Shown here: piece after piece, positions 5,533 to 62,684 of the stretch
Layout: every line of letters starts with the position of its first letter
Numbering within the stretch: position 1 is the stretch's first letter
Origin: Elusimicrobiota bacterium
GTDB taxonomy: Bacteria > Elusimicrobiota > Elusimicrobia > UBA1565
Direction of reading: 5' to 3'
Assembly (NCBI GenBank): GCA_016212885.1
Contig: JACRDO010000095.1
Span: forward strand, 1 to 64,000
Length of the DNA: 64,000 nucleotides
Notes under the pieces: model-generated
Seen by the model: the letters and a program-made list of their open reading frames with translations, nothing else
What the model was told of the DNA's origin: nothing
Databases searched by the model: none
Program-made: the position numbers and the translations under genes

Positions 5533-6449
5533 GCGGCCCCGGCGGCGAGAGCATGGACGAAAAATCCGAGAAGCCCCAGCCCGCGCCTGCCGCGCCCAAG
5601 CTAGCCGCTTCCTCCGGAAGCGCCGACGCGGCAGGCGCGGGGCGAGAGGAGAACGACTCGCGCCCCGTCATCGACTGCCGCGGCGTCACCAAGATCTTCA
5701 AAGACCCCCGCACGGGCAAGGACTTCATCGCCCTCGAAGACGTCTCCTTCGTCATCGACGACATCCCGGACACCGGGGAGCTCATCACCATCCTCGGGCC
5801 CTCCGGCTGCGGCAAGAGCACGCTCCTCAACATCATCGCGGGTTTGGGTCCCCATTACCCGCCCACTAAGGGCGAGATACTCATGAAAGGCCGGCCCATC
5901 GCCGGGCCGGGCTCGGAGCGCGGCATGGTGTTCCAGAGCTACTCCTCCTTCCCCTGCTACACGATCCTCGAGAACGTGGCCTTCGGCCTGAAGCTCAAGG
6001 GCGTTCCCGAAAAAGAGCGGGAGGGCATCGCAGCTGAGTGGATCAAGAAGGTCGAGCTCTCCGGGTTCGAGAAGAAGTACCCCAAGGAGCTCTCCGGAGG
6101 CATGCGCCAGCGCGTGGCCCTCGCTCGGACCTTGGCCGTCAAGCCTCGCATCATCCTGATGGACGAGCCCTTCGGGGCGCTCGACCGGATCACCCGCTGG
6201 GACATGCAGGATTTGCTCGTCGAGCTCTGGAGGGAGATCGAGGCCACGGTCTTCCTGGTCACCCACGACATCCCGGAGGCCGTCTTCCTGGGCGACCGGG
6301 TCTTCCTGATGAGCCCGAACCCGGGACGCCTCCTCGAGATCATCAAGCTGCCGAGGCCGACCGAGAAGGCCGCGCACATGCAGAGGACGGCGAAGTTCGC
6401 GGAGATCGTCAACGAGATCAGCCGCAAGGTCGAGGCCATCCGCCAATAA
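5529..6449 (+). CDS. ABC transporter ATPase, SsuB/TauB type
   Basis: A complete nucleotide-binding domain is present: Walker [10 protein letters not shown] (near residue 90), Q-loop FQSYSSF, signature LSGGMRQR (near 187), Walker [10 protein letters not shown] and H-loop THDI. It powers the neighbouring permease. The first 45 residues are a non-conserved Ala/Pro/Ser-rich tail encoded partly by a 62-bp palindrome (5580-5641), so the N-terminus is unusual. The gene overlaps the permease by 4 bases, and its TAA shares a base with the next ATG. Confidence 0.92.
5580..5641. repeat. Nested palindrome inside the ABC ATPase gene
   Basis: CCCGCGCCTGCCGCG (5580-5594) and CGCGGCAGGCGCGGG (5627-5641) are perfect 15-base inverted repeats. 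They enclose a second hairpin, CGCTTCC/GGAAGCG (5606-5612 and 5616-5622). The segment encodes only the Ala/Ser-rich N-terminal tail before the conserved domain, so it may be another in-frame palindromic insertion. Confidence 0.6.
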
Positions 6450-7288
6450 TGGCTGAGAAGACCAGCTACGTCAAAGAAGCCTTCAAGCGCCAGGAAAACC
6501 TGATCGCCCTGGCCGGCTTCGCCGCCGCCGGCGCCTTGTTCAACCCCGGCTTCCTGTTCCTTGGAGGGGCCATCGAGGTCGTCTACCTCTGGATGGTCGC
6601 GGGCAATCCGAGGTTCAAGCGCGTCGTGGACTCGGAGAAGAACCGAAGCAGCCTGCTCCTGGGCCAGAACGAGCGGGTGCGCATGCTCTCCACGCTGCCG
6701 GAAGCCGAGCGCGAGAGATACCTTGCCCTGGCGGACATCCGTCAGCGGGTCTACGACTCCTGGCAGTCGCGCGACTCCGTCACGCAGAGCCTGCTCCAGC
6801 CCAGCGTGGACAAGCTCGACTACCTCCTCGACACCTTCCTGCGCGCCCAGCTGACCCTCCAGCGCATGCGCGAGCATCTCTCAGGCAGCGACTTTGGGGA
6901 CCTCGAGAAGCAGGCCAAGATGCTCGAAACCGAGATCGCTCAGCGCCGCCTGCCGGACAAGCTCACGGAGGTGAAGTCCAAGAACCTGGAGATCCTCAAG
7001 CAGCGCATCGCGCGCCTCAAGAAACTGCAGGAGGACATCGCCGTGGTGCGCACCCAGCTCGACACGCTCGAGAACGCGATCCGCTTCGTCAACGACCAGA
7101 CGGTCTCCCTGAGCGACCCCCAGCAGATCACCAACGAGATCGACCGCGTCGCCTCGGAGGTGGGGGCGACCGAGAAATCCATCCAGGACGTCGAGTCGTT
7201 CCTGGGAACCCAGCAGGAGACCGACGAGAAGCGCATCGGCGAGATCCGCGCGGAGCAGCGCCAGGCGGAGGGGGAGCGCCCGGGATGA
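6449..7288 (+). CDS. Membrane-anchored coiled-coil protein of the PspA/ABC/AAA cluster
   Basis: The 279-residue protein has a hydrophobic hairpin near the N-terminus (about residues 15-50, ALAGFAAAGALFNPGFLFLGG) and then long helices predicted as coiled coil to the C-terminus. No named family was recognised. The ATG at 6449 overlaps the TAA of the ATPase gene, and the end overlaps the AAA+ gene by 4 bases. Such tight packing implies co-translation. A structural or adaptor role linking the transporter or membrane to the AAA+ ATPase is inferred only from context. Confidence 0.8.
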   Translation: MAEKTSYVKEAFKRQENLIALAGFAAAGALFNPGFLFLGGAIEVVYLWMVAGNPRFKRVVDSEKNRSSLLLGQNERVRMLSTLPEAERERYLALADIRQRVYDSWQSRDSVTQSLLQPSVDKLDYLLDTFLRAQLTLQRMREHLSGSDFGDLEKQAKMLETEIAQRRLPDKLTEVKSKNLEILKQRIARLKKLQEDIAVVRTQLDTLENAIRFVNDQTVSLSDPQQITNEIDRVASEVGATEKSIQDVESFLGTQQETDEKRIGEIRAEQRQAEGERPG

Positions 7289-9066
7289 ACCTGGAACAAT
7301 TCCCCAAGTGGGCCCAGGAGCTCGCGGACAAGTACGTGAGCGGGGCCTCGTCTTTGTTCGTGCTCTACGGCAACGTCGACGATTGGGTCCCCATGAAGGA
7401 CGTATCGAACCTTCCAAACAGCGTAGGTTCGATACGTCCAAACCTACAACGTTCGGAAGGTTTGGACGCGCGGAGCCTGCGCTACGTGTCCCTCCCGGAG
7501 TTCCTCAAGCAGGCCGTGTTCGGCACACGGGACGCGGTCATCCAGTACGACCAGGGCGGCGGCATCACGATCGGCTCGGAGGCGGCCCAGGACTTCTACC
7601 GGACCGTGGAGGCGATGGACACCGTCTCCGGCACGACCTTCTCAAAGCGCCTCCCGAAGAACCCGGCCGACGCGCTCCTCGTCATCGACCGGTTCATCCG
7701 CTCGAAGACCGCGGGCGAGGGCCGCAAGAAGGCCGGCATCGCGGTCATCATCTCCTTCGCGCACATGGTCGCCCCGCGCGGGGAGATATCCTTCATGAAC
7801 CAGGAGGACTGCCGCACCCTCATCACCCTGCAGAAGTGGGCCAGCGACCCGCTCTTCGCGCGCTCGGACGTGACCATCGTGCTGGCGACCGCAAGCCTGC
7901 AGGAGCTCAACGAGGCCTTAGTCAACAACCCCTTCACCTCCAAGATCCACGTCCCGCTCCCGGACGAAGAGGAGCGCGCCGAGTTCATCCGGGCCTCCCA
8001 GATCCCGGTCAAATACGAAGGCCTGACCCCGGAGACCTTCGCGCGGCAGACCAACGCCCTCTCCCGCGCGGACATCGAGGTGATGCTGAGGGGCGCCCAG
8101 CGGGCCGATAGGCTCGACCTGAATTTCGTGAGCGCCAAGAAGAAAGAGCTCATCGAGAAGTCCTGCTTCGGGCTGCTCGAGTTCCTGGAGCCCCGCTACA
8201 CCCTCGACGCGGTCGAGGGCCTCTGCGCGGCCAAGAGCCGCCTGCGCGAGGACATCCAGCTCATCAAGAAAGGCTGCTGGGACGCCCTGCCGATGGGCTA
8301 TCTGCTCTGCGGGCCGGTCGGCACCGGCAAGACATTTTTGAGCACCTGCGCCATCGGCGAGCTCGGCATCCCGTGCGTGCAGATGCTCAACTTCCGCTCG
8401 AAGTGGGTCGGCGCCACGGAGGGGAACCTCGAGAAGATCCTCATGACCCTGCGCGCCCTCGGGCCCGTGGGCGTGATCATCGACGAAGCCGACGCCTTCA
8501 TGGGCAGCCGGGAGCAGGAGGGGGACTCCGGCACCTCCGGCCGGATCTTCGCGCAGTTCGCGAGCCAAATGGGCGACACCAAGTACCGCGGCAAGATCCT
8601 CTGGTTCCTGCTCACCTGCCGGCCGGACCTCCTGCCCGTGGACATCAAGCGCCAGGGCCGCGTGGAGGTCCACATCCCGCTCTTCTACCCCCAGACCGCG
8701 GAGGAGAAGGTCCAGCTTTTCGTAGCCATGTCGAAAAAAGCCAAGTGGCCCGTAGAGCCGGCGGACGTGGATGTCCGATGGGTGGAAGGCAAGAAGCTCT
8801 CCGGAGCGGACATCGAAGCGGTCCTCGTCGGCGCCAAACGCAAGAGCCTTCTCGACGGCGAATCCAAGCCCGGGAAGGAGTACCTCCGCCAGGCCGCGGA
8901 AAGCTTCATCCCCGCGGCCAGCGCCGCGCAGGTTCAATACCAGGAGCTCGCGGCGGTCATCGAGTGCACGGACCTCTCGTTTTTGCCGGAGAACTACCGC
9001 AAGGCGGACCGGACGGAGATCCTGAAGGAATTCAACCGCCTGCGGGCCCTGCTGGAGGTGCGCTGA
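7285..9066 (+). CDS. AAA+ ATPase carrying an in-frame palindromic insertion
   Basis: The 593-residue protein has two P-loop-like regions. The first (about 20-290) is degenerate, with no clear Walker A, and contains LLVIDRFIR and VIISFAHM strands. The second is a canonical AAA+ domain with GPVGTGKT (near residue 342) and VIIDEAD (near 396), followed by a C-terminal lid rich in helices. The arrangement recalls Ycf46-like or two-domain AAA+ proteins, but assignment is tentative. Residues 39-61 are encoded by a 69-bp repeat (7399-7467); without it VPMK would join directly to ARSLRYVSLPEFL. It probably remodels a protein complex for the neighbouring PspA/ABC genes. Confidence 0.85.
   Translation: MNLEQFPKWAQELADKYVSGASSLFVLYGNVDDWVPMKDVSNLPNSVGSIRPNLQRSEGLDARSLRYVSLPEFLKQAVFGTRDAVIQYDQGGGITIGSEAAQDFYRTVEAMDTVSGTTFSKRLPKNPADALLVIDRFIRSKTAGEGRKKAGIAVIISFAHMVAPRGEISFMNQEDCRTLITLQKWASDPLFARSDVTIVLATASLQELNEALVNNPFTSKIHVPLPDEEERAEFIRASQIPVKYEGLTPETFARQTNALSRADIEVMLRGAQRADRLDLNFVSAKKKELIEKSCFGLLEFLEPRYTLDAVEGLCAAKSRLREDIQLIKKGCWDALPMGYLLCGPVGTGKTFLSTCAIGELGIPCVQMLNFRSKWVGATEGNLEKILMTLRALGPVGVIIDEADAFMGSREQEGDSGTSGRIFAQFASQMGDTKYRGKILWFLLTCRPDLLPVDIKRQGRVEVHIPLFYPQTAEEKVQLFVAMSKKAKWPVEPADVDVRWVEGKKLSGADIEAVLVGAKRKSLLDGESKPGKEYLRQAAESFIPAASAAQVQYQELAAVIECTDLSFLPENYRKADRTEILKEFNRLRALLEVR
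7399..7467. repeat. Family-1 palindromic element inside the AAA+ gene
   Basis: Two hairpins lie back to back. GACGTATCGAAC (7399-7410) pairs with GTTCGATACGTC (7427-7438), and GTCCAAACCT (7436-7445) pairs with AGGTTTGGAC (7458-7467). The length is 69 bp, exactly 23 codons. The encoded peptide has the pattern NLPxxVGSIRPxLxRS, also found in the transglycosylase and MFS genes. Confidence 0.92.
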
Positions 9067-13929: not shown

Positions 13930-15986
13930 CGGGAAAGGGCGCAGAGCCAGGCGTGGTACGCGGGGTCCGGCTGGCGGCTCAGCCGCTCGCGCGCGATCTC
14001 GAAGGCGCGCTCCTCTCCCAGGCGCAGGAACACCAGGGGGGAGAGCAGGCTCACCGGACCCGCCTCCTTCTCGGCCGCAATCAGCTTGAGCAGGTACTGC
14101 TTGTGCTGTTCGGCGACCGGCAAGCCGGCCTTCGCGCTGCAGAGGGCGCCGCAGATCGCGATGAGCTTGGGGACCACGGCCTGGGGATTCTGCTCGCAGT
14201 AGTAATAGTAGGACTCGATCATCCCAACCTCGTTCCACAGCGCGCCGGACCCCGCCATCTTGTCGGCCGCAAGGGCATGCATCAAGAGCTGGGCCAGGAC
14301 CATCAGGTAGGCCTGCTGCGCCTGCGGCGAAGGGGAAAGATAGAACCCCGGGTCCTCGGCCGGAGCAGCCAATCCCCTCCGAAACAGCCTTTCCCTCAGC
14401 TCCGCCTCCAGCCGCAGGGCGCAGGCCCCGAGGCCTTCCGGCGCCGCGAGCGACAGATGGTCCACAACGGCCCGCTTCGCCGTGTCCCACACGTCGAGTT
14501 CGACGCAGGCGCCGGATGGCGAAGGCGCGAATACGCCGCTGACGATCAAGCCCGGCGGGTCCGGCCAGAGTCCAACCTCGATGAGCGCCGGGACGTCCCA
14601 GGCCCCGCTCACGACCGGCCCCTTCTCAGGAACGAGCGGGACCATGCATAGCGCCCGCAGGCTCGTTTTATACGTCAGCGCTTCGGCCAGGTAGAGCGGC
14701 AGGGCGCGAGAGAGGCGGCCCCGGTCGTCTTCCGCTTCCTCATAATAACCGGGCTTGGCCCCGGCCCGCTCGGCCGCCCCCAAGACCTCGGACGCGGCAC
14801 TTCCTCGCGTTATCGCTCGGTCGCCTTTGCGCATCCCATCGGCGAAGCACAAGAAGCCGATCTCGGGCGAAGAGGCCGGCCGCAGTGGCAGGAGCCAGAG
14901 AGGCTCGCACAGTCCGCGCGTCCACACCGGGCCCGGAATCCGCACCAGGGAGATCGGCGGAGACATCTGCGCAGGCCGCGGGAGGCGGTCTTCCGGGAAA
15001 TCGCGCTCAAGCCGGCTCAAGGGCTCGGCCAGGTGCGCAAGGCTCAGGCCCTTGAGGCGATTGACCAGCTCGCGGCCTTCCTTCTCGCGCCCGGTCTCGA
15101 AGAACCCCCTGGCCAAGCTCAGAGCGGCGTAAGGCGAACTCTTCTGCGGATCGTAGAGCGGCCAGGCCAACTCGAGCATCTCGGAATGGAACCCCGCGCG
15201 CTCCAAGGCGCCGGCGACAGCGGCCAAGGCGTCGCTCTCGCCAGGGGCCGCGCGGCTATGGAGCACGGCACTACCGCGCGGTCCCTGGCTTCCAGCAGCG
15301 CCAGGGGCCGCGCGGCTCTGGAGCACGGCACTACCGCGCGGTCCCTGGCTTCCAGCAGCGCCAGGGGCCGCGCCAAGCGCGCGGCGGAAAAGCTCAAAGG
15401 CTTTAGAGGCGTCGCCCTCTCCGAGGCAGAGCTGCCCCAAGCGCAGCCAGGGCCTCCAGGCCCCCGACTCTTTGGCCACGTCCTCCAGAGCGGCGCGGGA
15501 GGCTTCGGCTCCGCCGCGGTCCTTGTGGATCGCGGCGTAAGCGCTGAGCGCGCCGTCCTGGTTGGGGTCGAGGGAAAGGGCGCGGCGCAGCAGGTCCTCA
15601 GCGGATGCGGCGTCGCCCTGCGCGGAGCGGACCTTCGCGAGAGTCGCAAGCGCCGCGCCGGTCTCGCCATGCTTGGCTATGAACGCCTGGAGGGTACGTT
15701 CCGCCGCGTCCAGCAGGCCGCCCTTGATCTGCGCGGCCGCCAGGATGGTCGAAGACCTCTCCGGATTCGGGTCGATCTCGATGAGCCTCGCGATCGCCGG
15801 AAGGGCGCAGTCCAGGAACCCGTCGCCCAAGGCGCCCACGATCACCTGGTAGAGCGCGTCCGGATCGTCCCAGGTCTTCTGGAAGTTCTCCGGAAGAACT
15901 TTTTCCGCCCAATCGCTGCGCGGGACAAGGACCCGCCGGCCGTTCTCGTCGTAATAGGAGATCATCTCCTCCAAACCTTCCGCCAT
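13926..15986 (-). CDS. TPR protein carrying tandem family-2 repeats
   Basis: The 686-residue protein is cytoplasmic by appearance. The first 250 residues contain TPR-like helical pairs (LARLIEIDPN, LLRRALSLDPNQDGAL, LRLGQLCLGEGDASKAFELFRRAL). Residues about 205-249 are a repeat-encoded insert with two copies of GAAGSQGPRGSAVL. The C-terminal 400 residues are of unknown fold, with a YYYYC stretch near 590. Its ATG overlaps the stop of the TPR membrane protein upstream, so the two form an operon. No specific function can be assigned. Confidence 0.8.
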   Translation of the reverse strand: MAEGLEEMISYYDENGRRVLVPRSDWAEKVLPENFQKTWDDPDALYQVIVGALGDGFLDCALPAIARLIEIDPNPERSSTILAAAQIKGGLLDAAERTLQAFIAKHGETGAALATLAKVRSAQGDAASAEDLLRRALSLDPNQDGALSAYAAIHKDRGGAEASRAALEDVAKESGAWRPWLRLGQLCLGEGDASKAFELFRRALGAAPGAAGSQGPRGSAVLQSRAAPGAAGSQGPRGSAVLHSRAAPGESDALAAVAGALERAGFHSEMLELAWPLYDPQKSSPYAALSLARGFFETGREKEGRELVNRLKGLSLAHLAEPLSRLERDFPEDRLPRPAQMSPPISLVRIPGPVWTRGLCEPLWLLPLRPASSPEIGFLCFADGMRKGDRAITRGSAASEVLGAAERAGAKPGYYEEAEDDRGRLSRALPLYLAEALTYKTSLRALCMVPLVPEKGPVVSGAWDVPALIEVGLWPDPPGLIVSGVFAPSPSGACVELDVWDTAKRAVVDHLSLAAPEGLGACALRLEAELRERLFRRGLAAPAEDPGFYLSPSPQAQQAYLMVLAQLLMHALAADKMAGSGALWNEVGMIESYYYYCEQNPQAVVPKLIAICGALCSAKAGLPVAEQHKQYLLKLIAAEKEAGPVSLLSPLVFLRLGEERAFEIARERLSRQPDPAYHAWLCALSR
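15241..15373. repeat. Family-2 palindromic repeat, two tandem 60-bp copies plus a partial one
   Basis: Units at 15241-15300 and 15301-15360 differ at one base, and 13 bases of a third follow. Each contains CCGCGCGGTCCCTGGC facing GCCAGGGGCCGCGCGG (15 of 16 pairs). The same sequence recurs at 27614-27672. Both copies are translated in the same frame as QGPRGSAVLxSRAA. Confidence 0.92.
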
Positions 15987-19677: not shown

Positions 19678-20480
19678 GGGTGGGAGCCGACCTCGGCGGC
19701 TCCTGGCTTCGCGCGGCGGTCTGCAAAGGCCGCGGCTTTCAAAGGGCGCGCAGGAGGATCGCGGCCGGCGAGGCGCCTGAGCGCGCGCTCGCGCAGGCCC
19801 TGCGGTCCCTCGGCCTGCGGCGCGTTCGCAGACTCGTCATCGGCGCAAGGGGCGCCTGGCTTGGGTCCGAGAAGGCGGCCCTGCGCCGCCGGCTCGCCGG
19901 CCTCGCCGACGAAATCCTCGTGATCTCGGACCTGGAGCTGGCCCACCTGGCGGCCTTCTCCGGAGGGCCGGGGGTGCTCGTCGCAGCCGGAACAGGCTCA
20001 GCGGCCTACGCGCGGGACATTCGCGGCAGGAGCGCCAGAGCCGGAGGCCTGGGCCCTCTGCTGGGGGACGAGGGGTCATCCTTCTGGATCGGCCGGCGCT
20101 GGCTCTGCGCGCTCCCCGACGAGGAGATCCGCCGCTTCGCCAAGCGGCCCGACGCGGTGCGGGCCGTGGCGGCGCTCGCGCGGGTGGTGCTCGCTCGCGC
20201 GGCCAATGACCGGCGCGCCCGGGCCATCGTTCGGGAGGCATGCCAAGGGCTGGCAACGCTGGCCTCGCGCGCCGCCTCGCAGCTGACCTTCAAGGGGCCC
20301 GCTCCCCTTTCGTGGTCCGGCGGACTCTTCCGCAGCGCGCTGTTCCGGGCCGAGTTCCTGCGGAGGCTGCCGCGGAGGAAGTTCTCTCCGCGGCCCATGG
20401 AGCGCAGGCCGGAAGATGCAGCAGCCATAAGCGGCGCACCAAACATCGGGAATGCGTATCGAACTTTCCAAACGACGTAG
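19674..20480 (+). CDS. BadF/BadG-type kinase, N-acetylglucosamine kinase-like
   Basis: The 268-residue protein has the ASKHA-fold phosphate-1 motif at the N-terminus (GADLGGSWLRAAV), the phosphate-2 segment (VLVAAGTGSAAYA) and GPLLGDEGSSFWIG, typical of BadF/BadG/BcrA/BcrD ATPases and N-acetylglucosamine kinases. A role in amino-sugar recycling is likely but unproven. The last dozen residues (PNIGNAYRTFQTT) are encoded by a family-1 repeat, which also supplies the TAG stop, so the native C-terminus appears to have been replaced. Confidence 0.8.
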   Translation: MRVGADLGGSWLRAAVCKGRGFQRARRRIAAGEAPERALAQALRSLGLRRVRRLVIGARGAWLGSEKAALRRRLAGLADEILVISDLELAHLAAFSGGPGVLVAAGTGSAAYARDIRGRSARAGGLGPLLGDEGSSFWIGRRWLCALPDEEIRRFAKRPDAVRAVAALARVVLARAANDRRARAIVREACQGLATLASRAASQLTFKGPAPLSWSGGLFRSALFRAEFLRRLPRRKFSPRPMERRPEDAAAISGAPNIGNAYRTFQTT

Positions 20481-20522
20481 GTTTGGTACGTCCTGAACCT
20501 AAGCCGTATGGTTGTTCAGGAC
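20438..20522. repeat. Family-1 palindromic element at the end of the kinase gene
   Basis: GTCCTGAAC (20490-20498) pairs with GTTCAGGAC (20514-20522). Upstream, ACCAAAC (20438-20444) and GTTTGGT (20481-20487) enclose most of a second unit (TCGAACTTTCCAAACGACG), so it looks like a nested or recombined pair. The kinase stop codon lies within it. Confidence 0.85.
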
Positions 20523-20539
20523 GGCAAGTTTGCTAGAAT
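20512..20539 (+). promoter_or_regulatory. Promoter of rpiB
   Basis: TTGTTC (20512-20517), a 16-base spacer and TAGAAT (20534-20539). The -35 box falls in the right arm of the family-1 repeat. The ATG at 20570 is 30 bases downstream. Confidence 0.5.
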
Positions 20540-27308: not shown

Positions 27309-28085
27309 GTGCCTTTGTTCGACCCCTTCGGCCTGAAGAAAGAATCCGCGCAAGAGCCGGCGCCGGGCGGCGAACCGGGCCTGAAAACCGCCAAGCTCTT
27401 CCTGGGCGCCATGCTGGCGCTCAGCGCCGCGCTTACCCTCGTGTGCGCCGGAGGCCTGGCCGCGCGCGTGCGCCGTCTCGTGCTTGAGTCCAAGCCCGCG
27501 GCCGCCCTCTCCGGGAAAGGAGAACGGCGACCCTCCGAGGACGGCGCTTCCCATGGCGCGGCCGCCGCCGCGAAGCAGGCCCCGACGCAGAAGGCGCAGC
27601 CCCAGCCCGCGGCCCCTGGCGCTGCTGAAAGCCAGGGACCGCGCGGTAGCGCCGTGCTCCTTAGCCGCGCGGCCGAATCGCCCGCCAAGCCGCCTGAGCC
27701 CGCGGCGAAAGCCCACGCGCCGCCGCAGGCCAAAGCGGTCCCAGCCGCTCCCGCTCCGGCCAAGGAGGCCCCCAAGGCGCCCGCGCCGCCGCAGGCCAAA
27801 GCGGCCCCAGCCGCGCCGGCTGCCGCGCCCGCCCCAGCCAAGGCTTCCACGACGAAAAAGATCGAGTTCTCCCACTCCGACCCTTCGGCGAAGGAGGCCC
27901 TCCTCCTGGGCGCGTTCCTCGTCAGGAGCAAGGGACGCGCGGAGATGGCCAAGTTCTCCAGCGGCGAATGGCGCCTGACGCTCACTCTCGTGACCGGCAC
28001 GACCTACTCCTACCGCATCGAGACCGTGGACGGCCAGGGCAAACGCCGCGTCTCCCCCAAGCAGTCCGTCTTCGTCAGTCCCTGA
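27309..28085 (+). CDS. Membrane-anchored protein with C-terminal CBM48-like domain
   Basis: The 258-residue protein has an N-terminal transmembrane helix (about 30-55), a long Pro/Ala/Lys linker, and a C-terminal domain (about 180-258) resembling the AMPK/CBM48 E-set fold: LLLGAFLVR, FSSGEWRLTLTLVTGTTYSYRIETVDG. The linker holds a family-3 copy, a family-2 copy and a 63-bp direct repeat (APPQAKAxPAAP twice). Glycan binding is possible, but many E-set domains of this type bind proteins. GTG 27309 is supported by the promoter directly upstream. Confidence 0.78.
   Translation: MPLFDPFGLKKESAQEPAPGGEPGLKTAKLFLGAMLALSAALTLVCAGGLAARVRRLVLESKPAAALSGKGERRPSEDGASHGAAAAAKQAPTQKAQPQPAAPGAAESQGPRGSAVLLSRAAESPAKPPEPAAKAHAPPQAKAVPAAPAPAKEAPKAPAPPQAKAAPAAPAAAPAPAKASTTKKIEFSHSDPSAKEALLLGAFLVRSKGRAEMAKFSSGEWRLTLTLVTGTTYSYRIETVDGQGKRRVSPKQSVFVSP
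27498..27566. repeat. Family-3 repeat in the CBM48-like gene
   Basis: The 69-bp unit begins GCGGCCGCCCTCTCCGGG and ends GGCGCGGCCGCC. It matches the MerR-gene repeat at roughly 58 of 69 positions by eye. It is in frame but read in a different frame from the MerR copy. Confidence 0.85.
27614..27672. repeat. Family-2 repeat in the CBM48-like gene
   Basis: This single unit is nearly identical to the reverse complement of the tandem copies at 15241-15360, and it is translated in the same frame (GAAESQGPRGSAVLLSRAA). Confidence 0.9.
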
Positions 28086-36815: not shown

Positions 36816-36830
36816 GGTTATGTCCCTTTC

Positions 36831-36888
36831 GTCCCGAACATCCGAACGGCGTATCGAACTTTCCAAACGACTTAGGTTCAATACGTCC
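36831..36888. repeat. Family-1 element between the DksA-like and transglycosylase genes
   Basis: The left half of one unit (GTCCCGAACATCCGAACGGC) runs into a second unit, GTATCGAAC ... GTTCAATAC (36851-36859 and 36876-36884; one mismatch). It is a chimeric pair like that at 20438. The last residues and stop of the transglycosylase gene lie in its right end. Confidence 0.85.
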
Positions 36889-38581
36889 GGCTGTCCCTTC
36901 TGGAGGGGGGCATATAGTCCGAGCAGTCGAGGGATTCGCCGCCTAGATCCGCGTAATACCCGAGGACCTTCCGCACGTAATTCTTGGTTTCAGGGAAGTT
37001 CGGGATCCGCGTCTTCACCCGCCCCTCCCCGGCGTTGTAGGCCGCGACGGCCAGGACCTTGTCGCCGTCGTAGAGTTCCAGCAGCCGCGTCAGGTGGCGA
37101 ACGCCTCCGTCGATGTTCTGCTCCGGGTTGCGGGGATTGACGCCCAGGCGGCGGGCGGTGCCTGGCATGAGCTGCATCAAGCCGACGGCGCCCGCGTCCG
37201 ACACCACCATGGGATTTCCCCAAGGATTCTCGGCCCGCATGACGGCTTCCACGAGCTTTGGGTCTAAGCCGCGCTTGCCCGCGATGATCTCGATGGTCTT
37301 CCGGTAGCGCGCCACGGGATCCTTAGTCGGGATGGAAGCCGCGGGGAGGGGGGTAATCGCCTGCTTGACCTGGTCCCGGACAGCTTTCAGAGTCGGGCTC
37401 TTCACCGGCCGTACGGCTTCCACCTTGGGCTTGGAAGGCCCCTGCCGGTAGGCCCGCTCGTAGGCGGCCAGGAGGTACTTGACCTCCGGATCGTTCGGGA
37501 TGCCTCCGCTGCGCACGACCTTCCCGGTGCCGACCTGATAGGCGGCCAGGGCGCGGTGCACGTCCCCGTGGAAAAAATCCAAGAGCTTGGACAGCAGCTT
37601 CGCTCCGACCCGGATGTTCGTCTCCGGGTTCTTGAGGTCCGCGGCCTTCATGCCCACGGCCTTCGCGGCGCCCGGGGTGATGAGCAGGAGCCCGTAGGAG
37701 CCCCCGCTCGCTCGGCCGGGCTTGGCTTCGAAGCCGCCTTTGGCGGCCACGAGGGCGCGCAGAACGTCCGGACTGATCCCCGCGGCCTTCGCCTCGCTTT
37801 GGATGACGGCTTCGTAAGGGCCCAAGGGGACCGCGTCCCGAACATCCGAACGCAGTAGTTCGGGACGTATTGAACCTACGGCGTGTGGAAGGTTCAATAC
37901 GTCCGGCAGGGGCACGTCCTTGCTGAGGTTGGCGCCCACGGTCTCGATGGCCCTGGGGAATCCCAGAGAACCCGCGGGCGATGCTTTCGCCGCAACGCGG
38001 GTCCAAGGCATGAGCGGCGTCCCGAACATCCGAACGGCGTTGGTTCGGGACGTCCCAAACCTACGCATTTCGGATGTTTGGGACGACGCGAGTGCATCGC
38101 GCACCGCGCTGTTGTCATAAAAGGCGGCAGGATCCTTCGCCCCCGCGGCCGCGCTCATGTCCAAAGTCTTCTTCGCGGCCGCGAGCTCCGCGCGCCGGGA
38201 AAGCTCCGGAGACTTCTCCTGCTGAGCCCGGGGCTCGAAGCCCTCCGGCCGCTCCTCGAAGCGGATGTTGTCCTTGCCCCAGACGGCCTTGAGGAGCTCG
38301 ATCGACTCCGCGGCCTCCTCCGCCTGCTGGAGCGTCCACGTGGAAGCGGTGAACCGCAGCTCCGCCATGCCGTTCTCCGTGTCCTCTACGAGGCTCTTGC
38401 CGGCGCCTAGGCCCACCAAGCCGAGGATCCGGGGCTCGGTGGCGTTCAGCTTCTCCTGCGCCTCGACACTCACGCCCTCAGGCATGCGCAGGACCACGCG
38501 GACATCGGCGCTCGCGGAGAAGGAGAGGAAGAGCAGTCCGAGGGAGGCTGCGGCGGAGATCCTGCAGGCTGGGCCCTTCAT
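36878..38581 (-). CDS. Two-domain lytic transglycosylase with repeat-encoded inserts
   Basis: The 567-residue exported protein has a signal peptide (ending SASA) and two SLT-type transglycosylase domains. In the second (about 430-545), Glu451 in RAENPWG is the catalytic acid and GLMQLMPGTA and AVAAYNAGEG are intact. In the first (about 260-375) the corresponding position is Lys281 (AAKGGF), so it is probably a non-catalytic, sugar-binding copy. Residues 227-249 (69 bp) and about 166-188 (66 bp) are family-1 inserts, and the C-terminal RDSRTY also comes from a repeat. It cleaves peptidoglycan glycan strands in the periplasm. Confidence 0.87.
   Translation of the reverse strand: MKGPACRISAAASLGLLFLSFSASADVRVVLRMPEGVSVEAQEKLNATEPRILGLVGLGAGKSLVEDTENGMAELRFTASTWTLQQAEEAAESIELLKAVWGKDNIRFEERPEGFEPRAQQEKSPELSRRAELAAAKKTLDMSAAAGAKDPAAFYDNSAVRDALASSQTSEMRRFGTSRTNAVRMFGTPLMPWTRVAAKASPAGSLGFPRAIETVGANLSKDVPLPDVLNLPHAVGSIRPELLRSDVRDAVPLGPYEAVIQSEAKAAGISPDVLRALVAAKGGFEAKPGRASGGSYGLLLITPGAAKAVGMKAADLKNPETNIRVGAKLLSKLLDFFHGDVHRALAAYQVGTGKVVRSGGIPNDPEVKYLLAAYERAYRQGPSKPKVEAVRPVKSPTLKAVRDQVKQAITPLPAASIPTKDPVARYRKTIEIIAGKRGLDPKLVEAVMRAENPWGNPMVVSDAGAVGLMQLMPGTARRLGVNPRNPEQNIDGGVRHLTRLLELYDGDKVLAVAAYNAGEGRVKTRIPNFPETKNYVRKVLGYYADLGGESLDCSDYMPPSRRDSRTY
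37835..37903. repeat. Family-1 element inside the transglycosylase gene (copy A)
   Basis: GTCCCGAAC/GTTCGGGAC (37835-37843 and 37858-37866) overlaps GACGTATTGAACCT/AGGTTCAATACGTC (37864-37877 and 37890-37903). The length is 69 bp. The translation, NLPHAVGSIRPELLRS, matches the AAA+ insert in frame and sequence. Confidence 0.92.
38019..38084. repeat. Family-1 element inside the transglycosylase gene (copy B)
   Basis: GTCCCGAAC/GTTCGGGAC (38019-38027 and 38043-38051) is followed directly by GTCCCAAAC/GTTTGGGAC (38052-38060 and 38076-38084). The length is 66 bp (22 codons), in frame with the gene. Confidence 0.92.
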
Positions 38582-41795: not shown

Positions 41796-42686
41796 TCAGC
41801 CGCCTTTGAGGGGTCCGGCCAGCGAGACCTCGCTGCGGCGGCGGTCGAGCGCGCGGGCCCGTATCTCGAAGGAATCCTTGTCCGCGGCCAGCCGGAACCC
41901 GTCCGGATCGAAGATTCCTTCCATCGCTTCCTTGAATTGCCTCACGTCGCCGCTCGCCTTGGCGAGATCCGCGAGCTGATCGGCATAGGCTCCCCGCTCC
42001 GCCTTGACGGCCTCTTCGACGGCCGCGAGGACCTTGAGCCCCTCGCGGGCCTTGCGGATCGCCTCGCGGTCCGCCGGGGTGGGGGAGAAGATGAAGAACC
42101 ACCAGTTCAGGGCCAGAAAGCCCGCGAGCGAAGCGAAAGCGAAGAGCGCGTTGCGCCCCGCCTGCCCCTGCGTCTTGGCTTGGACCTCGATGACGATAGT
42201 GCGGGCGAGAAGGTCGTGCCAGGCGCGGGACTCGGCCTGGAAGAGGGCCCAGATGAATCCGAGGTTGAAGACCGGCATGCTTGCCGCGTAGCCCAAGGCC
42301 CGCACAACGCTGCGGGCGAAGCCGGGGCGGCTTGCGTCCGGCCGGACCACGCGCAGGCCCAGCAAGCGCTTGCCGAGCGTCGCGCCGAAGAAGTTGCCCA
42401 GCATCTGATATAGGAGGTAGGCCGCGGCCCAGCCGAGGAAGATCCTCTTCCAGCCCCCGGTTACGAGGGTCGGGTCGTGTTTGAGAACGATGCGGCAATA
42501 GAGTGTCCCATAGTAGCCGGCCAGGAAGGGGAGGAGGTCGAGCAGGAAGGCGAGGAACCTGTCGGTGATCTTCGCCAGCGGCGGCGCGCTGGGAAGCGCC
42601 GTCCTCGCAGGACCGCCGTTCTCCCCTTCAGGAGAGGGCGGCGCGCTTGAAGAGGACGGCGCGGCCGGGGACTGGGGCTCGTCCAT
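41796..42686 (-). CDS. RDD-family membrane protein with soluble C-terminal domain
   Basis: The 296-residue protein has an RDD domain (about residues 38-175: ITDRFLAFLLDLLPF, LGKRLLGLRVVR, ARSVVRALGY), a further membrane segment (about 185-205), and a C-terminal soluble region (about 210-296) with a helix plus strands resembling the pilin-like domain appended to some RDD proteins. RDD proteins are membrane proteins of unclear role, some acting as ion antiporters. Residues about 14-36 are encoded by a family-3 repeat in the disordered N-terminus. Confidence 0.82.
   Translation of the reverse strand: MDEPQSPAAPSSSSAPPSPEGENGGPARTALPSAPPLAKITDRFLAFLLDLLPFLAGYYGTLYCRIVLKHDPTLVTGGWKRIFLGWAAAYLLYQMLGNFFGATLGKRLLGLRVVRPDASRPGFARSVVRALGYAASMPVFNLGFIWALFQAESRAWHDLLARTIVIEVQAKTQGQAGRNALFAFASLAGFLALNWWFFIFSPTPADREAIRKAREGLKVLAAVEEAVKAERGAYADQLADLAKASGDVRQFKEAMEGIFDPDGFRLAADKDSFEIRARALDRRRSEVSLAGPLKGG
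42579..42645. repeat. Family-3 repeat in the RDD gene
   Basis: On the minus strand the unit runs from GCGCCGCCCTCTCCTGAAG through GGGAGAACGGCGGTCC to GAGGACGGCGCTTCCC. It is read in the same frame as the MerR copy (compare PPSPEGENGGPARTA with PPSSGKENDSPTRTA). Confidence 0.85.
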
Positions 42687-43399: not shown

Positions 43400-45937
43400 C
43401 TAGCCGAGTTTCCCGAGGCGCCAGCGCAGGTACAGGTAGGCGATCCCGATCGGGATCAGCATGAAGGAGAGGTAGGTGAACGGCGTCAGCCCGGCCGCGG
43501 CCTTGAAGAGGTACTTCATCCCCACGAGGCCGAGGGTGGTGATGGCCAGAGAGGCCGAGCCCAAGAATCCCATCGCGTCCGCCATGTCTTCCTTGCGCGG
43601 GACCCGGGCCTGGAAGAAGCTCTGCAGCTTGAGCGTCGAGATGACCTGCGCGATCCCGAACGGGATCAGGGCAAGGGCGGGGAGAGTCAGGCTCGAGGCC
43701 CATGAGAGGAAGGCCGGGAGCGCCGCCATGGCGCCCAAGGTCGGCAGCGGCAGGGCCAGCGTGGCGAGCAGGGAGAGGCCCCCGGTCCCGAGGAGGAGCC
43801 AGCGCAGGAGCGACTTCCTGAGGATTTGCGCTTCCTGCGCATCGTCGATCTGCCCGGACTCCTTGCCCTTGGCGATCCGGTTGCCCTCCATCGTCATCAG
43901 CAGCCCGCCCAGCAGGCCGCCCGCGCTGTAGAGGCCGGTCAGCCAGCCGCTCACCGAGGTGGCCAGCTCCGAGTTGGCGGCGCCCACCAGCGCCAGCGCG
44001 TAGCCGGGCGCCATCATCTGATAAAGGAAAGGGTTGAGCATCATGACCAGGGAGTAGGCGATGAAGCTCAGGCGCAGGGCCGGAGCCCTCCAGACGAGCT
44101 TCGCGCCGCGGCCGATCTTTTGGAAGAAGCCCTTGAAGACGGCCCCTACGCCGCCCGGGCGGCTCTGCGGCCGCTCGCTCTTCAACTCGGATTTAGGAGG
44201 CAGGCGCAGGGTCTTCCATACGATCATCGCGGAAGCGAGAGCCGCGACCGGGAATGCGATCAGCGCGGGCATGAAGCCGAAGCTTGACACCACGATCCCG
44301 GTCACGATCGGCCCGGCGATCCCGATGATCTCGACGAGGGTGTGCTCGATGGACCAGAACCTCTCGAGCGCCGAGTTCTTCTGGCCCACCAAAAGCGGCG
44401 GGATGCTGTTGAGCGCCGTGATCGTCACCCCGAAAATCAGCGCGTTGACGGAGTAGAAGCCGATCATCAGAGGAAGGGTGATGTGCCCTGTGGCGAGCAG
44501 GCCGATGAGCGCCGAGATGGAAGCCAGCCTGAGGAGCATGGAGCCGAGGTACGTCTTCCTGATCCCGAACTTCTCGACTAGGACGGGCCCGATCTGCCGC
44601 CCGATGATGCCCGCGATGGAGGAGAACACCGCGAGCTGGGCCACGACGGTGAAATCGCCGAAGGCCTTCTGCACCAGGGTGGGCATCGCCGCGCCGAGGG
44701 CCTCGATGCCCACCTGGGCCACCAGCAGGGAGGAGATGAACCACCAGGCCACCTTGCCCAGAGCGGAGCGCTCCTTCTTCTCCTGCGCGGGCGCCGGGTC
44801 CGTCTTCGGAGCCTCTTGGATGTTGGCCGCGTTCGGGATGGCTGACGGGGGGAGGGAGAGCTGAGCCTCCGCGCCGACCGCCTCGGAAACCGGGGAGAGC
44901 TGAGCCTCCGCAGCTTCGACGCTCTCGAGCGCCAGCTGAGCCGGGGTCCCGGCGGCCTTGCCGGCTTGGACCTTGAAAGCCAAGCCCGCGTTCTCATCCG
45001 GAAGGCTGATGACGCGCCGGCCCAGGAACGGGATCTTCGAGAGCCAGCCTCCGGCCTTCACCGGAGCCTGGGAGGGGGAAGCTGTCTCGCCTTGCGCTTC
45101 TGCGCCGCTCAGCTCGCCCAGGGCGCGCGCGTCGGACCGGAGATCCTCGGAATCCTGCCGTCCGGAGAAGAGCCTCTTCAGCTCTTCGAAGCGCCGGCCC
45201 AGGGTGTTCGGTCGGCCGCGCAGCTGCTGAAGGGAAGAGGCGCCTTGCTCGACGACGGGGACCTCTCCGACATCCGTTGTGCGGACATCGCCCGACTGCG
45301 CGGCCGCAGGGACCCCGCGCGGACCGACCAAGGACGCGGCAGGCGCCGACACCGAAGCGTCCATGGCGCGTTCGCGCAAGACCGCGGGGGCCTGGAAAGG
45401 GACGGGCTGCATCCCGCCGCCGGAGGGCCGCAGAAGCGGGACCCGCTGGGGCGCTGCCCCAGGGGCGGCGATGACGGAGGCGGGCAGCACGAGCGACGCG
45501 GCGGAGGGCGAAGCGGTGACGGAGGGCTCCACGACCGGGGTCGGCACGGAGAGGGGGGAGACGAGCCCGTTCGAGATATTCCCCATGAAGCCCGGAAGGC
45601 TGGTCTGGATGCGGATGTTCTGCAGGCTGAGCGCTCCAACTCCAGCCGCGCCGAGGTTCAGGCCGCCGACCGGGGTGTTGACCTTGATCGGGGTCGGAGC
45701 GGTCTGCGCCGCGGCCTGGGTGGGGCCGATGCCTGGGGCCGTGAGGAGGAGCGCGAGCGCCAGAGCGAGGCAAAGCGCGCGCTTGGCCGTACCAAACATC
45801 CAAAATATGTAGGTTCGGTACGTCCCGTCCAAACCTTCCGAACGTCGTAGGTTTGGACGTATCGAACCTACGCAGTTTGGAAAGTTCGATACGAACCAAC
45901 GTCGTTTGGATGTTCGGGACGCCGTAAGGACCTTCAT
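43400..45937 (-). CDS. MFS transporter with long N-terminal extension and repeat-split signal region
   Basis: The C-terminal 460 residues form a major-facilitator transporter with about 12 hydrophobic segments (SLLVAQVGIEALGAAMP; RQIGPVLVEKFGIRKTYLGS as the loop 2-3 motif). Before it lie some 330 low-complexity residues and, at the very start, MKVLTA followed by a 44-residue insert and then AKRALCLALALALLLTAPG. Removing the 132-bp family-1 element restores a textbook signal peptide. The substrate is unknown. TATAAT lies 9 bases upstream of the ATG. Confidence 0.83.
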   Translation of the reverse strand: MKVLTASRTSKRRWFVSNFPNCVGSIRPNLRRSEGLDGTYRTYIFWMFGTAKRALCLALALALLLTAPGIGPTQAAAQTAPTPIKVNTPVGGLNLGAAGVGALSLQNIRIQTSLPGFMGNISNGLVSPLSVPTPVVEPSVTASPSAASLVLPASVIAAPGAAPQRVPLLRPSGGGMQPVPFQAPAVLRERAMDASVSAPAASLVGPRGVPAAAQSGDVRTTDVGEVPVVEQGASSLQQLRGRPNTLGRRFEELKRLFSGRQDSEDLRSDARALGELSGAEAQGETASPSQAPVKAGGWLSKIPFLGRRVISLPDENAGLAFKVQAGKAAGTPAQLALESVEAAEAQLSPVSEAVGAEAQLSLPPSAIPNAANIQEAPKTDPAPAQEKKERSALGKVAWWFISSLLVAQVGIEALGAAMPTLVQKAFGDFTVVAQLAVFSSIAGIIGRQIGPVLVEKFGIRKTYLGSMLLRLASISALIGLLATGHITLPLMIGFYSVNALIFGVTITALNSIPPLLVGQKNSALERFWSIEHTLVEIIGIAGPIVTGIVVSSFGFMPALIAFPVAALASAMIVWKTLRLPPKSELKSERPQSRPGGVGAVFKGFFQKIGRGAKLVWRAPALRLSFIAYSLVMMLNPFLYQMMAPGYALALVGAANSELATSVSGWLTGLYSAGGLLGGLLMTMEGNRIAKGKESGQIDDAQEAQILRKSLLRWLLLGTGGLSLLATLALPLPTLGAMAALPAFLSWASSLTLPALALIPFGIAQVISTLKLQSFFQARVPRKEDMADAMGFLGSASLAITTLGLVGMKYLFKAAAGLTPFTYLSFMLIPIGIAYLYLRWRLGKLG
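45789..45920. repeat. Family-1 element in the MFS gene start region (four units)
   Basis: The units are GTACCAAAC/GTTCGGTAC (45789-45821, one mismatch), GTCCAAACCT/AGGTTTGGAC (45827-45858), GTATCGAAC/GTTCGATAC (45859-45892) and a left-truncated unit ending GTTCGGGAC (45920). The total is 132 bp, 44 codons. About 96 bp are identical to the reverse complement of the copy at 60484. Confidence 0.93.
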
Positions 45938-60391: not shown

Positions 60392-60483
60392 ATATCTGCG
60401 ATGCAGATGCTGAAGCGCGATAGAATTCCTATTTCGGAAAGTTTGGACGACAGAATGTCTGCAAATAGCGCTCGACGGGCTCC

Positions 60484-60618
60484 GTCCCGAACATCCAAAC
60501 GACGTTGGTTCGTATCGAACTTTCCAAACTGCGTAGGTTCGATACGTCCAAACCTACGACGTTCGGAAGGTTTGGACGGAACGTCCCAAACCTACGAATC
60601 CCCGATGTTTGGAACGTC
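60484..60618. repeat. Family-1 element upstream of plsY (four units)
   Basis: A right-truncated GTCCCGAAC unit is followed by GTATCGAAC/GTTCGATAC, GTCCAAACCT/AGGTTTGGAC and ACGTCCCAAAC/GTTTGGAACGT (one mismatch). The first 96 bases are identical to the reverse complement of the MFS-gene element. A stray half unit (TTTCGGAAAGTTTGGAC) lies at 60433-60449. The 60365-60630 gap holds only this and the terminator. Confidence 0.92.
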
Positions 60619-60630
60619 CGTCTCGGCGAC

Positions 60631-62111: not shown

Positions 62112-62611
62112 TGGAGCCGACGGCGCCCTCCTTGGGGCGGCCGCCCTCTTCGGGAAAGGAGAACGACAGCCCTACGAGGACGGCGCCCTCCTTGGGGCGG
62201 CCGCCCTCTTCGGGAAAGGAGAACGACAGCCCTACGAGGACGGCGCCCTCCTTGGGGCGGCCGCCTCTGCCTGATAAGGATTTCTTCAACATCGGCGAGG
62301 CCGGCCGGATCGCGCAGGTGCCTGAATACACCCTGCGCTACTGGGAGAGGCGCTTTGGCATGCTCCGCCCGGTGCGCCGCGAGAGCGGGCACCGCCGCTA
62401 CACCCGGCGGGACATCGAGACCATCCTCCGGATCAAGGAGCTCCTGCAGGGCCGGAAGATGACCGCGGCCGGCGCGCGCAAGCTGCTCCTTGCGCGGGCC
62501 GCGTCCGAGAGAAAGTCAGCGGGGCAGCCGCTCCGGCTGGACGCGCAGGCGCTGAAGCTCCTGCGCGACGTTCGGGAGGACCTCCGCGAGATTATCGCGG
62601 AGCTGCAATGA
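62111..62611 (+). CDS. MerR-family regulator with a repeat-encoded N-terminus
   Basis: The helix-turn-helix domain starts only at about residue 57 (FFNIGEAGRIAQVPEYTLRYWERRFGMLRPVRRESGHRRY), as in MerR proteins next to ihfA genes. The first 50 residues are the translated family-3 tandem repeat (TAPSLGRPPSSGKENDSP twice and partly again), absent from normal relatives. The stop codon TGA lies in the left arm of a family-1 element. The protein should bind DNA as a dimer; its effector is unknown. Confidence 0.9.
   Translation: MEPTAPSLGRPPSSGKENDSPTRTAPSLGRPPSSGKENDSPTRTAPSLGRPPLPDKDFFNIGEAGRIAQVPEYTLRYWERRFGMLRPVRRESGHRRYTRRDIETILRIKELLQGRKMTAAGARKLLLARAASERKSAGQPLRLDAQALKLLRDVREDLREIIAELQ
62119..62268. 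repeat. Family-3 repeat, 60-bp tandem array in the MerR gene
   Basis: Two full 60-bp units and about 27 bp of a third start at 62119, 62179 and 62239, identical where they overlap. The unit contains the palindrome GGGCGGCCGCCC and ends with GGCGCC. It is entirely within the N-terminal coding region and in frame. Confidence 0.93.
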
Positions 62612-62670
62612 GCCTCCCACACGGCGTAGGTTCATTGCGTCCCGAACTACGTCGTTTGGATGTTCGGGAC
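62605..62670. repeat. Family-1 element at the end of the MerR gene
   Basis: GCAATGAGCC (62605-62614) pairs with GGTTCATTGC (62629-62638) except at one position, and GTCCCGAAC (62639-62647) pairs with GTTCGGGAC (62662-62670). The MerR stop codon TGA is in the first arm. It is 14 bases upstream of tRNA-Pro. Confidence 0.9.
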
Positions 62671-62684
62671 GGGACGTGACTCAT

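Follow-up and report, generated by a model that had tools for sequence, protein, structure and literature searches.

The window analysed here, a stretch of 64,000 nucleotides from a contig of an Elusimicrobiota bacterium (genome G000), raises the question of why one short peptide should recur in unrelated proteins that are encoded on both strands. A preliminary description had proposed that a repeat, referred to as Family-1, is translated in frame in an AAA+ ATPase, a lytic transglycosylase and an MFS transporter, and had likened it to the palindromic elements of Rickettsia. Rickettsia and some Proteobacteria are the best-known hosts of palindromic elements inserted in frame. The current analysis indicates that Family-1 is very probably a mobile, frame-neutral element made up of two hairpins.

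Family-1 is a dispersed double hairpin of 68 nt with the order CGT-stem-loop-stem-ACGT-stem-loop-stem-ACG, the second hairpin being inverted relative to the first. The second half is an inverted version of the first, a core TCCRAAC..GTAGG being conserved, and within one copy the two usually have different stems. The stems are 10-12 bp and the loops about 12 nt long, the CGT pairs with the ACG, and the GTAG sits on the 3' side, where loop and stem meet. Stem sequences differ among copies while the pairing and the loop are kept, with 30 double-change cells against 7.7 in shuffled data (0 of 500 shuffles reach the observed value). Watson-Crick pairing amounts to 95-96% in the two-hairpin fold against 39-73% in a single long hairpin, by which the latter fold is ruled out. 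The two subtypes differ in their arms, which are 36+34 in type I and 35+35 in type II, and both total 68 nt because the central CG is common to both arms. This length is found in 89 of the 100 parsed copies of G000; independent arm lengths would, by our arithmetic from the parsed copies, predict about half at 68 nt, an expectation that is not to be read as a probability because the copies share descent.

A covariance model (R2) built from 18 copies recognises about 100 distinct places in its own genome, and an HMM applied to stretches of G000 identifies at least 145 units in at least 108 places, both counts being lower bounds since scoring was restricted to the best candidates. A strict centre pattern has 118 matches against 2 for the reversed control. 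On the basis of these matches and of the covariance-model places, a chance origin of the family is excluded. The Rfam search returned two tRNAs only.

Two copies are present in the gene of the lytic transglycosylase (SLT, PF01464; 36878-38581, minus strand). One of them (37834-37901, minus strand) has 36+34 arms, is 68 nt long from CGT to ACG, scores 86.7 bits with the covariance model and is read as VLNLPHAVGSIRPELLRSDVRDA. The other (38018-38085, plus strand), also matched by the covariance model, is of type II (35+35), lies in another frame of the same gene and gives the peptide SSQTSEMRRFGTSRTNAVRMFGT. The AAA+ ATPase gene (PF00004; 7285-9066, plus strand) contains a type I copy (7401-7468, plus strand; 94.3 bits) that is read as VSNLPNSVGSIRPNLQRSEGLD. 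At the N-terminus of the MFS transporter gene (PF07690; 43400-45937, minus strand) a composite has been identified (45785-45921, minus strand), in which a type I element (45826-45893) is nested in a type II element.

The copies in the AAA, SLT and MFS genes are stop-free in the frame of the gene, as had been described. VGSIRP does recur in genic copies, but the same peptide had been assigned to three inserts, and the copy at 38018 differs in subtype, frame and peptide. The copy in the MFS gene is likewise real, but it occupies the very N-terminus, no coding signal is seen upstream of it, and a signal-peptide-like hydrophobic stretch follows immediately after an ATG inside the element; judged from the sequence, translation through the element in this gene is an uncertain, candidate case.

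The composite occurs a second time in the window (60483-60619, plus strand; inner element 60511-60578; 92% identical to the first). It lies by a plsY-like gene, identified by a G3P_acyltransf match, either at the gene start or, more probably, upstream of it. A ROK-like gene has at its 3' end a copy of 69 nt (20455-20523, plus strand), probably a composite remnant, which supplies the stop codon. Another copy (62604-62671, plus strand) lies upstream of tRNA genes and overlaps the stop codon of a MerR-like gene, and a remnant of truncated hairpins is intergenic (36830-36889, plus strand). Across the genome about one third of the Family-1 copies lie convincingly in frame within genes, others being intergenic or, like the ROK-like and MerR-like cases, at 3' ends.

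Comparison of filled and empty sites reveals that each insertion adds exactly 66 nt, which corresponds to 22 codons. The target CG is present once in the empty site and twice in the filled site, and one of the two CGs could be the element's own right end. The AAA insert and one SLT insert had earlier been given as 69 nt; the net length is 66 nt per element, the other two bases being the second copy of the target CG. Five empty copies of another repeat, Family-2, read CTCCG(A/G)GGA-CG-GCGCTTCC, and filled copies carry CG-64 nt-CG at the same point, a net gain of 66 nt, with flanks that differ slightly among the filled copies. A subtilase gene of G000 and that of its sister species G001 each have one Family-1 copy in the linker (L112 2962-3029 and L174 2922-2989) at different CGs, each being empty at the other's site, and both sites differ by 66 nt between the two genomes. 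These two copies have an identical unusual stem, so a local move within the gene is possible. The flanks of most copies are unique, and their CG ends are exact. Type I insertions have G at -2 in 80% and A at -1 in 50%, with no preference on the right side, a bias that resembles the element's own right end (GGACG). The composites consist of one Family-1 inside another at a CG, each adding 66 nt.

Further repeats were noticed. Two near-identical nested composites (2073-2234 and 6379-6540) are situated 4.3 kb apart on one short contig (L121, G000:C49), for which duplication or an assembly artefact is possible. Family-2 is a second dispersed repeat (27498-27571, 42573-42642 and 62137-62270 in the window) that is in frame in several ORFs, the MerR-like gene holding 60-nt copies in tandem. 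Elsewhere in the genome, Family-1 is found within some Family-2 copies. Multi-copy MITE-like repeats (L092, L093, L097-L100, L108) carry a type II copy, some of their ends resemble CTAGTGTAGTGTCCC, and several contigs end in them.

The joined flanks of the in-frame inserts were searched against G001 and then aligned, orthology being taken as the best match in this one sister genome; genes were called with a home-made codon model, with Pfam and with the same genome. The assemblies are MAGs, and several Family-1 copies lie at contig ends. For 19 in-frame inserts in 14 genes a relative in the sister species matches across the junction without the insert, two of the 19 being weak. Among the clear cases are the AAA+ ATPase, a penicillin-binding protein that has a transglycosylase domain, a riboflavin kinase/FAD synthetase, an amylase and a protein kinase domain. 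Others of the insert-free relatives, including those for both SLT sites, have gaps beside the junction in the alignment. The two weak matches concern an N-terminal kinase insert (L119 2216) and a response regulator (L066). The match of L076 3198 to an insert-free relative was spurious.

Alignment with orthologues, which had been suggested as a check, has shown that the AAA and both SLT inserts are absent from the sister species, so that the outcome named beforehand as refuting, a peptide belonging to a conserved domain, did not arise. Both SLT inserts are missing from the G001 orthologue (L029/L132). The AAA insert is missing from that of G001 (L129) and from L021, L022, L023 and L025, the net difference being 22 amino acids; the nearest relatives of this protein are from Elusimicrobia MAGs, and its Planctomycetota relatives are also without the insert. 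In an AlphaFold model of modest overall confidence (mean 65, six sequences) the AAA insert is predicted as a low-confidence loop (pLDDT 33-37) between two β-strands (34-38 and 65-69), the flanking domain being mostly at 70-90.

Type I is stop-free in four of the six frames. In the genes of the window CG is at the phase NNC|G in 48%, and GGACG is at that phase in 87 of 126 occurrences. At this phase type I has a single open orientation, which reads VSNxPxxVGSIRPNLRR. Recurrence of the VGSIRP peptide therefore follows from the net length of 66 nt, the CG target, the codon phase of the CG and the stop-free orientation. A functional peptide, for example a localisation or interaction tag selected in many proteins, is highly improbable. 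One frame does recur in about a dozen genic copies (10 among the better-supported type I copies, the uncertain MFS copy included), but CG phase and stops account for this bias, other frames and subtypes yield other peptides, the host proteins are unrelated, the same frames are also open in copies that lie outside genes, and the peptide is absent from sister orthologues. The peptide itself would appear to be functionless and tolerated as a disordered loop. For annotators this is a caution that a peptide common to unrelated proteins is not necessarily a domain.

Family-1 is best pictured as a non-autonomous mobile element of two back-to-back hairpins in inverted orientation, similar to REP doublets (REPINs). 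Its insertion at CG, preceded preferentially by GA for type I, adds exactly 66 nt, and the reading frame survives because 66 is a multiple of three. The copies seen in genes would be survivors of selection for a stop-free orientation and phase at places that tolerate a flexible loop. The hairpins would be recognised as single-stranded DNA by a trans-acting enzyme, most likely of the HUH type (IS200/IS605 or RAYT-like). That stem sequences change but pairing and loop persist, and that the target bias is one-sided and resembles the right end GGACG, argues for such a single-strand mechanism, for which the chances appear about even. Published TnpA-REP enzymes bind single-stranded DNA in its folded form and cleave at short dinucleotides, a choice that in one system involves a GTAG motif (PMC8266576); the fit to the one-sided target and covarying stems of Family-1 is in kind only.

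Y1_Tnp genes are encoded in all eight genomes of the family, six of which are without Family-1, and three are present in G000. No transposase gene flanked by Family-1 was found, two of the three Y1_Tnp (RAYT-like) genes of G000 having been read. These two (L126 3671-4649 and L115 5689-6661) have GGGGTCAG-like flanks instead, with a clear inverted repeat in one, and resemble the TIR-flanked RAYTs described previously (PMC3733652). Y2_Tnp has no match in G000 and is an unlikely mobiliser there.

Family-1 could otherwise be a MITE of a conventional double-strand transposase or recombinase, a coreless one whose halves serve as terminal inverted repeats of 33-34 bp and which generates a 2-bp duplication of CG. 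The inverted halves with their conserved core and the doubled CG agree with this possibility, the duplication being equally compatible with a staggered double-strand cut. The stems, however, covary inside each half, the two halves usually bear different stems, the target preference is one-sided, and a partner IS with Family-1 ends was not noticed in an unsystematic look, so a MITE of this kind seems somewhat unlikely. It is more improbable still that Family-1 spreads only as a passenger of larger elements, such as the MITE-like repeats and an IS91-like gene, together with recombination, and has little mobility of its own at present. Seven copies are indeed located within MITE-like repeats, and a 564-bp piece of an IS91-like (Y2_Tnp) gene with two Family-1 copies is 93% identical between G001 and G245, which belong to different Elusimicrobiota families (L157 1013-1668 and L015 1-597). 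Against this, the unique flanks with exact CG ends of most copies, and the insertions by which sister species differ, argue against spread as a passenger alone. The shared piece nevertheless suggests that the mobile double hairpin has also spread horizontally as a passenger of the IS91-like gene, which is a likely vehicle.

Family-1 is present in G001, which is of the same genus, and was not found in the six other genomes of the family. Under strict filters it occurs in 5 of the 295 genomes of the phylum sample, G000 counted. A length of 68 nt with arms of 36+34 or 35+35 holds also for most copies of G001, G041 and G245; in G056, from a distant family, three of four copies are 71 nt long, which is also 3n+2. 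It is conceivable, though rather doubtful, that selection keeps the length to a whole number of codons, which the two subtypes reach via different arms; Family-1 would then be a transposon adapted to life inside genes. Selection at genic sites alone is unsupported, the length of 68 nt being found in 29 of the 32 genic copies and in 60 of the 68 remaining ones; as the two classes are alike, the length is a property of the element.

The comparison with Rickettsia palindromic elements holds for behaviour. In the literature they are described as palindromic and dispersed, with several families per genome, inserted in frame in many unrelated genes and giving a recurring peptide (PMC10969869, citing Ogata 2000 and 2002), a behaviour that Family-1 shares. 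They are set apart by a length of about 150 bp (PMC10969869) and by their phylum, Family-1 being 68 nt long with a net gain of exactly 66 nt and a CG target.

The closest architecture is that of REPINs, inverted doublets of short palindromes that form the mobile unit, have compensatory stem changes and are thought to be mobilised by RAYT (PMC3116915). REPINs are described as extragenic and near RAYT genes, whereas Family-1 is often intragenic, flanks neither of the two RAYT genes read among the three Y1_Tnp genes of G000, has loops of about 12 nt and is without a GTAG tag 5' of the hairpin. Intragenic REP dimers with a CGTC tag encode 20-30 amino acids in several species, a dedicated transposase not being known (PMC3733652). 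Family-1 is similarly an intragenic dimer with an encoded short peptide, for which no dedicated transposase was found. The CGTC tag of those REPs is unpaired, with stems of 8-9 bp and loops of 4-5 nt (PMC3733652), while in Family-1 the CGT is paired with ACG and both stems and loops are longer.

No report of such elements from Elusimicrobiota was found in a search of the open-access literature. Family-1 is an abundant case of in-frame palindromic elements from a further phylum. Its insertion boundaries are exact and its target is defined, each insertion amounts to 22 codons net, and a sister species supplies empty sites. Movement without an obvious transposase, and selection of a coding-compatible length, become testable in this case.

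A further hairpin repeat, Family-3, is also present in the window (15239-15372 and 27608-27674): a TPR-like gene holds two 60-nt copies in tandem and in frame, and a third copy lies in another ORF.
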